Shown here in pieces: positions 15,590 to 50,079 of a stretch of DNA of 64,000 bases (positions within the stretch are counted from its first letter, which is position 1; each line of letters starts with the position of its first letter). The notes beneath the pieces were generated by a model. The model did no database searches and was not told the origin of the DNA. It saw only the letters and a program-made list of their open reading frames with translations. Source of the DNA: Microbacterium aurantiacum (GTDB lineage Bacteria > Actinomycetota > Actinomycetes > Actinomycetales > Microbacteriaceae); the NCBI RefSeq assembly GCF_002872075.1, contig NZ_PGGU01000006.1:266322-330321 (forward strand), read 5' to 3'. The position numbers and the translations under genes are program-made.

Positions 15590-15630
15590 GACGTGCTCCT
15601 CTGACAACGGATTCGAAAGGGTGGTCCTCA

Positions 15631-15717
15631 TCGGCCCAGGCGCGCGGTCGAATTCCGTGGTCAGCCGCTCCCCGGTGGTAGTCCACCCAGACGCCAGTCG
15701 CGACGGTTACGAGCATA
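15631..15717 (-). ncRNA. ZTP (pfl) riboswitch and -10 box ahead of glyA
   Basis: On the minus strand the leader shows the conserved pfl-motif blocks in order: GCGACTGGCG, a GGGTGG/CCACC stem, CCGGGGAGCG, then after a variable joint the CGCGCCTGGGCC block. glyA and folD are among the commonest targets of this class, which binds ZTP/ZMP. A TATGCT -10 box (complement of 15712-15717) lies just upstream, so transcription would begin at the first riboswitch base. The blocks match from memory of the motif; covariance scoring was not run. Confidence 0.85.
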
Positions 15718-46092: not shown

Positions 46093-47907
46093 TCAGACCA
46101 GCGTCTCCTGCCAGGCGGCGTGCAGCTGCGCGAACTTGCCGGTGCCGCCGATGAGCGCGGCCGGGGTGTCGTCCTCGATGATCCGTCCGTGCTCCATCAC
46201 CAGCACCCGGTCGGCGATGGCCACCGTCGACAGGCGGTGCGCGATGATGATCGCGGTCCGGTCGGCGAGCAGCGTCTGCAGAGCATCCTGGATCAGCCGC
46301 TCCGAGGGGATGTCCAGCGACGCCGTGGCCTCGTCGAGGATCAGCACAGACGGATCCGCGAGGAACGCCCGGGCGAACGAGATCAGCTGACGCTGTCCCG
46401 CCGACACCCGGCCGCCGCGCTTGTTCACGTCAGTGTTGTACCCGTCCGGCAGCGATGAGATGAACTCGTCCGCTCCCACCGCTCGCGCGGCCGTCCGGAT
46501 CTCGTCGAGCGTGGCATCCGGCTTTCCGAGCGCGATGTTGTCGGCGACGGTTCCGCTGAACAGGTACGCCTCCTGAGTGACCATCACGATCGCCCGGCGC
46601 AGGTCCTTCGGATGCAGCTTCCGCAGATCGACTCCGTCCAGGGTGACGCGACCGATCGTGGGGTCGTAGAACCGCGAGATGAGCTTCGCCAGCGTCGACT
46701 TGCCCGCGCCGGTGGTTCCCACGAGCGCGATCGTCTGACCGGCGGGGATGTCGAGTGAGAAGTCCGGCAGGATCGTGGTCTCGCCGTTGTAGCCGAATGT
46801 GACGTCCTCGAAGCGGATCGCACCGCGCGATTCCCACAGGTCGACGGGCTTCTCGGGGTCGGGGACGGTCGGCTGCTCTTCCAGCACACCGGACACCTTC
46901 TCCAGCGCCGCCGTCGCCGACTGGTAGGAGTTCAGGAACATCGCGATCTCCTGCATCGGCGCGAAGAAGTTGCGCACGTACAGCACAGCGGAAAGCAGCA
47001 CACCGACGGTGAGCGCACCGGTGGAGACCCGGATGCCGCCCCAGAGCACGACGGCACCGAGGGTGAGCGCGGCGACGCCCATCAGCCCGGGTTCGAACGT
47101 GCCGAACAGCAGCATCGAGCGCCGGTTGATGTCCCGGTAATCGCCCGCCACCTTCTGGAAGGTGACGTCGTTGCGGGGCTCCTTGCGGAAGGCCTTGACG
47201 GCGCGGATGCCGGTCATCGTCTCGACGAACTGCACGATCACCTTCGCGCTGATCACGCGGGATTCCCGGTAGACGAGCTGCGAGCGCGAGTAGAACCAGC
47301 GCATCAGCATCATCAGCGGGATGCCGGCGAGCGCAAGGATCACGCCCGACTGCCAGTCCCAGACGACGAGGGCGATGAAGGTGAACGCACCGAAGAGAAC
47401 ACCGGAGACGAGGTTGTTCAGACCGCCGTCCAGGAGCTCCCGGATCGAGTCGAGGTCGCTCGTCTGGCGCGAGATGATTCGACCGGACGTGTACGACTCG
47501 TGGAACTCGAGGCTCAGCTTCTGCGTGTGCAGGAAGATGCGCTTGCGCAGATCCAGCAGTACCGCCTGGGTGATCCGGGCGGCGATCATCACGTACCAGG
47601 CGATGAGCACGGCAGCGGCCGCACCCGCGAACAAGTAGACGAAGCCGATCGCGAAGGTCGGCATCCAGTCCGCGCGCTCGAGCACGGCCGGCAGCGCCTG
47701 GTCGAGTCCGATGCTGATGAGGATCGGCCCCGCCACCTGCAGTGCCGTCGAGATGACGAGCACCGCGGCCGCGAGGATGACCTGCGGTCGCAGCGGCCGG
47801 ATCAGCGAGCCCAGCAGGCGCAGCGACCGCTGACGGATCTCCCTGCTCTCCGCGCGGGTGTAGTCGGAACGGTCCTCGTTCTGCGTACCGGTGATGTCGG
47901 AGCTCAT
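46093..47907 (-). CDS. ABC exporter half-transporter with consensus ATP site (second subunit)
   Basis: 604 residues: six membrane segments (about 30-320) then an ATPase domain. Walker [11 protein letters not shown]-loop in [11 protein letters not shown], Walker [14 protein letters not shown] with the catalytic Glu, and switch His in IIAHRLSTV are all intact. The signature reads VSAGQRQ, not SGGQ. Together with the partner, whose Walker B ends in Asp-Asp, this gives one normal and one degenerate ATP site, the pattern of heterodimeric multidrug exporters such as BmrCD, LmrCD and TM287/288. Its start overlaps the partner's stop (ATGA). The transported drug is unknown. Confidence 0.92.
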
Positions 47908-49814
47908 GCCTGCACCTCCTCTTCGATGGCCAGTTCTTCGTCGGGCAGATCGCCCTCTTCGTCGTCTTCGGCGGTATCTCGGATGATCGGGATCGAGCCG
48001 GTCCTGGCCGCCTCCTCCGCCTCGAGGCTGGAGATCACGTGCCGGTAGTGCCTGCTCGACTGCAGCAGCTCGCTGTGCGTGCCGACCGCCGTCACGCGTC
48101 CGCGTTCGAGCAGCGCGACCCGGTCCGCGAGGGCCACGGTCGAAGGGCGGTGCGCCACGATCAGCGCCGTGGTCTCGGCGAGCACGTGCCGCAGCGCCTC
48201 CTCGACGAGCGCCTCGGTGTCGACATCCAGAGCCGAGAGCGGATCGTCGAGCACGAGGACCCGCGGGTTCGCCGCGACGGCACGGGCGAGCGCGAGACGC
48301 TGGCGCTGTCCGCCGGACAGGCTGAGTCCCTCCTCGCCGATGATCGTCTCCACGCCCTCAGGGAGCGCGTCGACGAACCCGGCCTGGGCGACGTCCAGCG
48401 CCTCGCGCAGCACGCGTTCGGCCTCGTCGCTGTGCACGTCGAGCTCGGCCCGGCCCAGCAGCACGTTCTCCCGGACGGATGCCGAGAACAGCGTCGCATC
48501 CTCGAATGCCATCGCGATGTGCTGGCGCAGATCGGCGAGGGTCAGGTCGCGCACGTCCACGCCGTCGAGCGTGACCCGGCCGCCGGTGACGTCGTAGAGA
48601 CGGGCAGGCAGCGTCGTCAGCGTGGTCTTGCCGCTGCCGGTGAGTCCCACCAGCGCCATCGTCTCACCGGGGCGCAGCACCAGGTCGATGCCGTCCAGCA
48701 GGTCGCGTTCCTGCGCGCCGGCATCCTGGTAGCGGAAGTGGGCGTTCTCGAACGCCAGCTCTCCGCGCGGGTTCTCGATGCGCACCGGGTTCGCGGGGTC
48801 CGTGATCGTGTTCGTCTCGGAGAAGATGTCGAACACGCGGTCGGTCGCCGTGCGCGCATCGAGCATGAACGAGAAGAGGAAGCCGATCGACTCGATCGGC
48901 CAGCGCAGCACCGTCGCCATCGCGAAGAAGGCGAACAGCTCGGGCAGATCGATGGCGCCCTGCGAGATCAGCCAGATACCCGTCATCAGGCTGAGGCCGA
49001 ACGCGATCTGCGGCATCAGGTCGAGCCAGAACCAGATCGAGGCGATCGCCCCGGCCTTGCTCATCTCGGTCTCGCGCAGCGTCTCGGCCTGGCGGCTGAA
49101 GCGGCTGAGCGCGTGCTTGCCTCGTCCGAAGGCCTTCAGCACGCGGATGCCGTGCACGCTCTCCTCGACGCTGGTCGCGAGGTCGCCGGCCTGGTCCTGG
49201 CTGCGTCGCGTGAGCGCGCCGTAGCGCTTCTCGAACAGATAGCCCCGGATCCACAGCGGAATCGCCGTGACGAGGAAGATCGTTCCGAGCAGCCAGTGCC
49301 AGCGGAACAGCAGCACAGAGCCGATGATGATCGTGAGCACGTTCACGACCAGAAGCACCAGGCCGAAGGCGAGCCAGCGGCGGATGAGACCGATGTCCTG
49401 CATCATCCGGCTGAGCAGCTGTCCGGACTGCCAGCGGTCGTGGAACGACACCGGCAGCGTCTGCAGGCGCGAGTAGAGGTCGGTCCGCATGCGGTACTCG
49501 ACCTCGGTCGCCGGGTTCAGCACGAACCAGCGGCGCAGCCAGATCATGGCCGCTTCGCCGACGGCGAGGCCGAAGACGGCCAGCGCGCCCCAGGCGATCG
49601 CGCCGATCTCACCGGACCGGACGGGGCCGCTGATGATCTGCTCCAGCACGAGCGGGATCATCAGCGCGATGACGGCCGCGACGAGTGCGCTGGCGGCGCC
49701 GCCGACGAGTCGCCAGATGACCGGCTTCACGAACGGCTTGAGCCGCCAGAGCGCGGCGGGGGTGGAGAGAGTGGAGGAGGGTGAAGTGTTCTGCGAAGAA
49801 GGCGAGGAAGACAT
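47904..49814 (-). CDS. ABC exporter half-transporter with degenerate ATP site (first subunit)
   Basis: 636 residues: six membrane segments and an ATPase domain with an acidic C-terminal tail ([18 protein letters not shown]). Walker [10 protein letters not shown] and signature LSGGQRQ are normal, but the catalytic Glu after Walker B is Asp ([12 protein letters not shown]) and the Q-loop reads [11 protein letters not shown] without Gln. This is the degenerate partner of the downstream subunit. The start codon has only a weak GAGAG ribosome site, 118 bases after a leader-peptide gene and an attenuator-like hairpin. In Bacillus, bmrCD is induced by ribosome-targeting drugs through the leader BmrB; the layout here is alike, which is inference. 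Confidence 0.92.
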
Positions 49815-49860
49815 GTCTCTCAGACGAGTTTCGTATGGAAAGCGGTTGCTGAAAAGGGAA

Positions 49861-49896
49861 CGGACACAGGAACGGACTCTCAGAGTCCGGTGTCCG
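49861..49896 (-). terminator. Attenuator-like hairpin between leader peptide and exporter genes
   Basis: On the minus strand CGGACAC-CGGACTC pairs with GAGTCCG and GTGTCCG; a five-base bulge (TTCCT) interrupts the 3' arm, giving 14 bp in all and a TGA loop. TTCCCTTTTC follows. The heptamer GGACACC of the 5' arm is repeated over the leader's ribosome site (49998-50004), so the 3' arm GTGTCC could pair with either. Consistent with a terminator/anti-terminator switch. Confidence 0.65.
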
Positions 49897-49931
49897 AAAC
49901 AGAGGGCGCGGAGCGACCCGCGGCGGTCGGT

Positions 49932-49997
49932 CTAAGGGAACAGGCGCACCGGGGTCGAGCCGAGAGCTGCGATCTGCGCGCTGGCGATCGTGGTCAT
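49932..49997 (-). CDS. 21-residue leader peptide upstream of the ABC exporter
   Basis: ATG at 49995-49997 with a near-perfect GAGGAGG ribosome site (AGGAGG, complement of 50003-50008) at six-base spacing. The peptide begins MTTIASAQ and ends TPVRLFP, then TAG. The ribosome site is far better than that of the exporter gene it precedes. Its position (about 45 bases after a predicted transcription start, 117 bases before the exporter, with a hairpin in between) is that of a regulatory uORF. The RLFP end recalls the MRL/RLF-type nascent peptides that interact with macrolide-bound ribosomes; this is a resemblance only. Stalling in the presence of a drug would alter folding of the downstream hairpin. 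Confidence 0.72.
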   Translation of the reverse strand: MTTIASAQIAALGSTPVRLFP

Positions 49998-50049
49998 GGT
50001 GTCCTCCTCAGAGCTCGGCTGTGTCGTCCGGTCGGTGCGACAGCCCATC

Positions 50050-50079
50050 AGCCTATTGCTGTGAACCGGCTGATCGCAA
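50050..50079 (-). promoter_or_regulatory. Promoter of the leader-ABC exporter unit
   Basis: Minus strand TTGCGA (complement of 50074-50079), 18-bp spacer, TAGGCT (complement of 50050-50055). Transcription would start about 45 bases before the leader peptide. Confidence 0.62.

Follow-up and report, generated by a model that had tools for sequence, protein, structure and literature searches.

How might expression of the ABC exporter operon in this window (the whole stretch of DNA analysed, 64,000 nt from Microbacterium aurantiacum) be controlled, given that a small reading frame and a hairpin lie between its promoter and its first gene? The answer we prefer, with confidence slightly better than even, is that the minus-strand locus combines a uORF, a conserved stem and a weakly initiated exporter, and that the progress of ribosomes along the leader would set the exporter level.

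The exporter operon and its upstream elements

The operon and all of its upstream elements were read directly from the window sequence and lie on the minus strand. Subunit 1 of the exporter (636 aa, 47904–49814, minus strand) and subunit 2 (604 aa, 46093–47907, minus strand) are encoded by genes that overlap by 4 nt, and both proteins contain the ABC membrane and ATPase domains (Pfam PF00664 and PF00005). The NBD of subunit 1 carries LDDPLSALD, with a degenerate catalytic Glu, and its D-D-P was invariant in all 17 of 17 aligned orthologues; the NBD of subunit 2 has the canonical Glu. One degenerate and one canonical ATP site is the pattern of heterodimeric ABC exporters, and the operon encodes a pair of half-transporters, each a TMD-NBD fusion, of which one lacks the catalytic Glu. 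The Pfam domains and the NBD pair bear out the heterodimer-type exporter that an earlier note had placed downstream of the leader. Neither subunit scored above a curated NCBIfam cut-off among the matches listed, hence no drug-transporter name was obtained and the word "multidrug" in that note is presumptive. Relatives with solved structures included TM_0288, YheI/YheH and a pair named multidrug resistance ABC transporter, and the top-scoring structure chains were eukaryotic ABCB proteins.

Upstream of the operon, the features first described are confirmed as genuinely present in the window sequence: the promoter TTGCGA-N18-TAGGCT, a 21-codon frame with a strong ribosome site, and a 14-pair hairpin followed by a weakly initiated ABC gene. 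The -35 element TTGCGA (50074–50079, minus strand) and the -10 element TAGGCT (50050–50055, minus strand) are separated by 18 nt, and their TTG and TA were conserved in 94–100% and 100%, respectively, of 135 anchored relatives (135 of 142 distinct relatives could be anchored; 7 were left out). Because the anchor itself contained the CT that follows the -10 core, as well as a GCT at +7, the conservation of these two positions proves nothing. A sigma-70 consensus scan did not call a promoter at the leader locus. From the -10 spacing, the transcript probably starts at about 50046, and the start carries a conserved GGGCTGTCG in the 135 anchored relatives, the GCT of which belonged to the anchor.

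The promoter spacer was conserved as well, with two CAG about 11 bp apart (consensus CTCAG...CAGG; window 50050–50079, minus strand; 135 anchored relatives), and this sequence could be a regulator site. WhiB7 was considered as the regulator and set aside: the RGR hook marks WhiB7, and by eye neither of the two Whib-domain proteins found has it. Nor did the window's genome yield a further copy of the cassette: the promoter word, with up to 3 mismatches allowed, occurred there once.

The leader ribosome site GAGGAGG (50003–50009, minus strand) was invariant in the 31-row alignment described below. It precedes the leader frame MTTIASAQIAALGSTPVRLFP and its stop (49932–49997, minus strand), which runs for 21 codons from the ATG at 49997 to the stop ending at 49932. 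A C-rich, G-poor spacer of 117 nt (49815–49931, minus strand; 43 C and 28 G) separates the leader from the exporter ATG at 49814, which stands behind the weak ribosome site CTGAGAGAC. The word GGACACC is present twice in the window's locus: one copy lies at the ribosome site of the leader, the other in the 5′ arm of the hairpin. Elsewhere in the window, a ZMP/ZTP riboswitch was detected at 15627–15711 (minus strand; 49.5 bits, above the Rfam gathering score).

The leader frame among relatives

We searched 172 Microbacterium regions upstream of the exporter (92 plus 80, the latter drawn from 135 matched; near-copies from overlapping collections are included, and 156 of the 150-nt ends are distinct) for a leader with a strong ribosome site, an ATG or GTG start and a length of 15–36 codons, lying no farther than about 340 nt from the exporter. 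The rule found a leader in 87 of 92 and 70 of 80 regions (157, with 15 misses), and four of the misses (L012, L220, L263 and L267) carry a leader farther upstream or with a weaker site. The leader expected ahead of the exporter in relatives was present in 161 of the 172 regions; two were masked (L050 and L223) and nine had none (L103, L105, L108, L215, L222, L239, L245, L261 and L268). In these nine leaderless relatives, M. oryzae (L105) among them, the -10 element lies 51–102 nt ahead of the exporter ATG. Since nine of 172 regions do without it, the leader is dispensable. A tree of 95 subunit-1 proteins, made by a quick method, with long branches and with the masked L050 scored as present, requires at least two separate changes for its three leader-absent rows. 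Regions with too little upstream DNA (L053 and L101) were left out of the counts, and L106, L107 and L110, from other genera, were excluded from the Microbacterium tallies. The spacer between leader and exporter was extended to 324 nt in L263, through CCGCGCCACCG-like repeats, and to 271 nt in L267. The exporter of L087, a record titled Planococcus sp. APC 4015, groups within Microbacterium in the subunit-1 tree; the record is a mislabelled or mixed assembly.

Subunit 1 was matched in 129 of 150 genomes from other Microbacteriaceae genera. Under a stricter rule that also required a -10-like word, a leader was found in 35 of 80 regions, representing 28 of 57 genera (the 80 were taken from the 129 matched genomes, one or two per genus), and further regions hold the frame without a -10-like word. 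These frames occur in other genera despite an unrelated leader RNA. None of five stretches upstream of paralogous ABC genes contained a uORF. By eye, a comparable leader was not seen at the six nearest order-level outgroup loci (L018–L023), and the rule reported two short frames with partial ribosome sites in L020 and L021.

The window's clade was defined as 31 distinct sequences with the exporter site GAGAGAC. The leader had 21 codons in 30 of the 31 and 22 in one, and the spacer after it had 14 different lengths in all three phases. Leader pN/pS was 1.15, 1.13, 1.12 and 0.95 in four subgroups (n = 35, 11, 7 and 6, respectively), and across 16 loci it was 1.13, compared with 0.10 for the exporter (180 codons, 16 loci). 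The in-frame value of 1.13 was not below that of the +1 frame (1.15; +2 frame, 0.66), so coding is not proven by substitutions alone. The pS of the leader (0.17) was lower than that of the exporter (0.31; 16 loci each), indicating that the bases of the leader are constrained rather than its residues. Codon-position G+C of the leader (0.70/0.62/0.84) was part-way toward that of the exporter (0.69/0.46/0.91).

A pN/pS near 1 that is similar in a wrong frame favours the explanation that the region is a structured 5′ UTR with an incidental frame, whose helices influence the stability of the RNA, pausing or the initiation of the exporter with no sensing ribosome. We nevertheless consider this explanation unlikely, because the frame keeps a constant length in all but one of the clade members beside an indel-rich spacer, begins with ATG in 141 and GTG in 1 of 142 leaders (the strong ribosome site being part of the search rule), and recurs in genera whose leader RNA is unrelated. 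Two properties of the hairpin given below count on the side of the incidental frame.

The earlier note had likened the VRLFP end of the peptide to peptides that respond to macrolide-bound ribosomes, and had advised a check for a conserved peptide end. The results showed that VRLFP is the C-terminal end of 1 of 157 leaders and that no residue pattern is conserved across leader groups; as far as the aligned sequences indicate, the leader peptide is not conserved in the subgroups compared. The R/K-X-R/K motif is associated with macrolide arrest. Among 67 non-redundant leaders, R/K content climbed from 4% to 19% along the peptide, and R/K-X-R/K occurred in the last ten residues of 19, compared with 11.3 in shuffled peptides (7 of 2000 shuffles as high), with no R/K-pair excess in this set at spacings 3 to 5. 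These values suit a drug-specific arrest peptide that stalls the ribosome near the leader end, as in the macrolide-induced erm/msrD leaders. However, the motif excess vanished in a stricter set of 23 peptides (4 of 23 versus 2.6 expected, p = 0.24), 22 of the 87 leaders found in the first 92 Microbacterium regions contained the motif at any position and the window's leader did not, and no peptide-level selection was found. A conserved arrest sequence of the erm/msrD type was not found in these leaders, and we regard a drug-specific arrest peptide as quite improbable and the proposed macrolide-responsive end as unsupported by the comparison.

The frame might also encode a small trans-acting peptide, a cargo or partner of the exporter, and a small variable frame does adjoin the exporter operon in most members of the genus. 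Against this, there is no conserved residue pattern across groups, bases are held more than residues, and Pfam found no peptidase domain in either ABC subunit, which makes a trans-acting peptide the least probable of the alternatives weighed here, and a very improbable one.

Codon usage was also examined as a possible signal and rejected. Rare codons made up 15.1% of the leader versus 4.4% with the two exporter genes as reference, and the excess shrank to 6.2% versus 4.7% with the window's other genes as reference. Over their first 24 codons, the genes of the window reach 11.2% rare codons.

The hairpin, the spacer and predicted pairings

The stem-loop between leader and exporter (49861–49896, minus strand) has 14 pairs and a 5-nt bulge on its 3′ side, and in the window it is followed by the tail TTCCCTTTTC. 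We counted its pairs in 28 of the 31 clade sequences (25 distinct rows); L034, L038 and L195, which have stem inserts, were left out here and retained in the 31-row counts. The results demonstrated pairing in 97.4% of cells, compared with 24–42% when the strands were slid, and four pairs change on both sides, a number that 2 of 500 shuffles attained (shuffle value, 1.2). Covarying stems, which the earlier note had named as a check, are thus borne out in the window's clade. The 117 nt of RNA from leader stop to exporter start had a fold z of -1.70 (11 of 200 shuffles equally good), and z reached -2.8 once the last 8 nt were removed (60 shuffles).

Across the 31 clade members, the hairpin lies 40–47 nt from the exporter start (SD 1.4) and 16–50 nt from the leader stop (SD 6.8); its spacing is steady to the former and not to the latter, so the hairpin belongs with the exporter start. 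This placement, together with the retention of a GGATGCC-GGCATCC stem ahead of the exporter in the leaderless L222, favours an incidental frame as discussed above.

The hairpin and its pyrimidine tail had been taken for an intrinsic terminator, with the two GGACACC copies allowing the 3′ arm of the hairpin to pair instead with the leader ribosome site. Both copies are indeed in the window, and its hairpin is followed by CCCUUUU. Of the 31 clade members, however, one has a run of at least 4 U within 15 nt after the hairpin. A hairpin without a U-tract argues against a textbook intrinsic terminator. GGACACC stands at the leader ribosome site in 23 of 31 members and the hairpin arm matches that site in 1 of 31, the only member sharing the heptamer between the two being the window's own genome; a conserved competing partner for the hairpin was not found in the clade. 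A switch between terminator and GGACACC pairing is accordingly improbable, marginally more so than an arrest peptide. As far as sequence comparison can tell, the frame and the hairpin are upheld and the wiring first proposed for them is not.

A second stem of 6 pairs (49907–49922, minus strand) follows directly after the leader stop, with the tail CCCTCTGTTT. It was the sole call of a terminator scan at the locus (1 found, 0.3 expected), which did not call the 14-pair hairpin. By eye, this stem is not conserved and falls where the spacer is rich in indels.

The composition of the spacer was shared widely. All 142 distinct Microbacterium spacers had more C than G, at a median ratio of 1.89, as did all 35 spacers from other genera. 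The 120-mers of the window had a median C/G of 1.0 and a 95th percentile of 1.44, and 14 control upstream regions of the window had a median of 1.07, with none at 1.89. The window's own spacer, at 1.54, was equalled by 2 of these 14 controls.

We next describe the pairings predicted for the leader RNA. In a consensus fold of the 31 sequences, the 5′ UTR strand GCACCGACCGGACGACACAGCCGAG (50014–50038, minus strand) is the predicted partner of leader codons 12–18 (CTCGGCTCGACCCCGGTGC; 49946–49964, minus strand), which would form the 3′ strand of the helix. This helix paired in 97.2% of cells, compared with 29–46% after sliding of the strands. Changes on both sides were seen at one pair (8 cells), which is A-U in 8 sequences, G-C in 17, G-U in 5 and broken in one; it falls in leader codon 17, so that the peptide alternates between V and A in step with the 5′ UTR. 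A simple covariation scan ranked this pair 181 of 5166 and two hairpin pairs 4th and 53rd (zero-based). Between the transcript start and the leader stop, the RNA folded no better than shuffles in the clade (mean z +0.18), and the mean z of this leader half was -0.65 over 140 sequences, with a control value of -0.26 (2 of 142 sequences were left out of this measure and of exporter-site openness).

Leader codons 11–15 are also complementary to the exporter site CUGAGAG, with one shared position for the predicted duplex in 26 of 31 sequences of the clade. The duplex averaged -15.4 kcal/mol (z -0.82) in the window's clade, in which its pairs showed no covariation; four other groups gave no signal for such a duplex (z +0.07 to +0.41), and the leaders of another group paired with this clade's exporter site nearly as well (-14.5). 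The predicted openness of the exporter site was nearly static, at 0.38 for the free RNA and 0.46, 0.42 and 0.37 with a ribosome on the leader, and the outer pairs of the hairpin likewise moved little, from 0.83 to 0.77, when a ribosome was placed there. Thermodynamic unmasking of the exporter site was therefore rejected, blocking the leader having no effect. Given the weak z, the lack of covariation and the steady openness, the switch named below is a proposal for the window's clade and not a result.

Two other pairings were discarded. That of the transcript 5′ end with the exporter start (columns 2–8 with 275–282) is broken, by eye, by the GTCATG start of a sister clade, and within the window's clade all of its pairs are invariant and provide no test. 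The other, noted by eye in different clades, would join GGATGCC of the leader site to GGCATCC close to the start of the exporter; these words are common in the window, with 79 copies over both strands against 11 for the mean word.

A further element was observed in the clade with the exporter site AAGGATC, where GGCATA occurred in 27 of 49 non-redundant spacers, compared with 0.2 expected from shuffles. In 36 of 142 distinct regions, between the leader stop and the exporter, an interval of exactly 16 nt separates GGCATA from a downstream CGTT or close variant of it, with L007, L009, L010, L017, L058, L060 and L087 among the carriers; 35 of 38 GGCATA-to-CGTT gaps between 8 and 25 nt equalled 16. 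The element was absent from 80 regions of other genera and from the window's leader. Across 59 genomes the exact pattern gave 34 matches, compared with 14 for a reversed control, and 14 of the 34 lie at this exporter as judged by coordinates. The near-fixed spacing resembles a two-part promoter, and we assume a likeness to an ECF-type sigma site. GGCATA also favours small stems (mean 3.9 pairs versus 3.1 shuffled, 0 of 300 as high), and GGCATA-N16-CGTT is a possible second promoter or RNA element.

Proposed control and known systems

On the evidence above, the locus is likely an attenuator with a translated uORF, one that would respond to translation as such and not to a particular peptide. 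We infer its translation, ribosome sensing, choice of pairing, termination, inducer and output step. The ribosome would be the sensor and the leader would serve as RNA occupied by ribosomes, so that any slow-down of translation would be a signal; ribosome-targeting drugs are likely included, and no specific arrest peptide would be needed. In the window's clade, leader codons 11–15 would pair with either the 5′ UTR or the ribosome site of the exporter, CUGAGAG. With a ribosome kept on the leader, the exporter site would stay open, and normal translation of the leader would expose the C-rich spacer and the unused start to premature, probably Rho-type, termination. Rho-type termination of untranslated C-rich RNA would fit the spacer composition, and the premature-termination step is the weakest of the proposed mechanism.

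A broader reading is that the cassette is a general translation-stress sensor on a drug-type exporter: frame length and RNA would be kept and the peptide not, any stall would be sensed, the leader would be lost in some lineages, and another clade would have a candidate bypass promoter in GGCATA-N16-CGTT. We put this forward tentatively and rate it as rather doubtful, if a little less so than an incidental frame. If the proposal is right, the kind of ribosome-monitored control that Bacillota are known to exert on heterodimeric exporters reaches a large actinobacterial family, and intact leaders, unrelated peptides and leader-loss relatives make up a natural series for peptide-independent sensing.

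The comparisons that follow draw on parts of the cited papers. In Bacillus subtilis, bmrCD is preceded by the 53-codon bmrB, which has an intrinsic terminator inside the frame, and induction was shown (PMC4191407). As judged from that part, both loci place a small translated-type frame before a heterodimeric ABC exporter operon, with a hairpin between promoter and exporter, and a translatable frame with a ribosome site stands ahead of the exporter here as in the bmrB type. In contrast to bmrB, the leader here has 21 codons, the hairpin follows the stop of the leader and keeps its spacing to the exporter start, and a U-tract is absent from 30 of 31 relatives, whose longest U-run after the hairpin is below 4. 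The patAB pair of Streptococcus pneumoniae, an ABC exporter pair with a Rho-independent terminator (PMC4319486), is alike in that an attenuator stem precedes the exporter genes, whereas the text of PMC4319486 consulted mentions no leader frame for patAB.

In Escherichia coli, the toiL uORF lies upstream of the toxin-antitoxin pair topAI, and pairing of the leader RNA was probed (PMC12121999). According to the portion used, the RNA of the uORF is able to pair with the ribosome site downstream, what is sensed is occupancy by ribosomes and not one peptide, and the output is possibly through Rho, all of which resemble the proposal made here. The leader/exporter-site pairing here is, unlike that of toiL, predicted, in one clade and without covariation, and an exporter rather than a toxin-antitoxin pair lies downstream. 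The actinobacterial whiB7/wblC uORF is reported to respond to several ribosome-targeting antibiotics (as cited in PMC12121999; listed in PMC13236596); going by these mentions, a regulator gene is controlled there, whereas the uORF here stands directly on the exporter operon.

No description of such a cassette in Microbacteriaceae was found in the open-licence PMC papers searched; the cassette is widespread, undescribed in that literature and of a known regulatory kind. In its logic, as read from the sequence, the window's leader appears bmrB- or toiL-like, without thereby counting as a member of either system.
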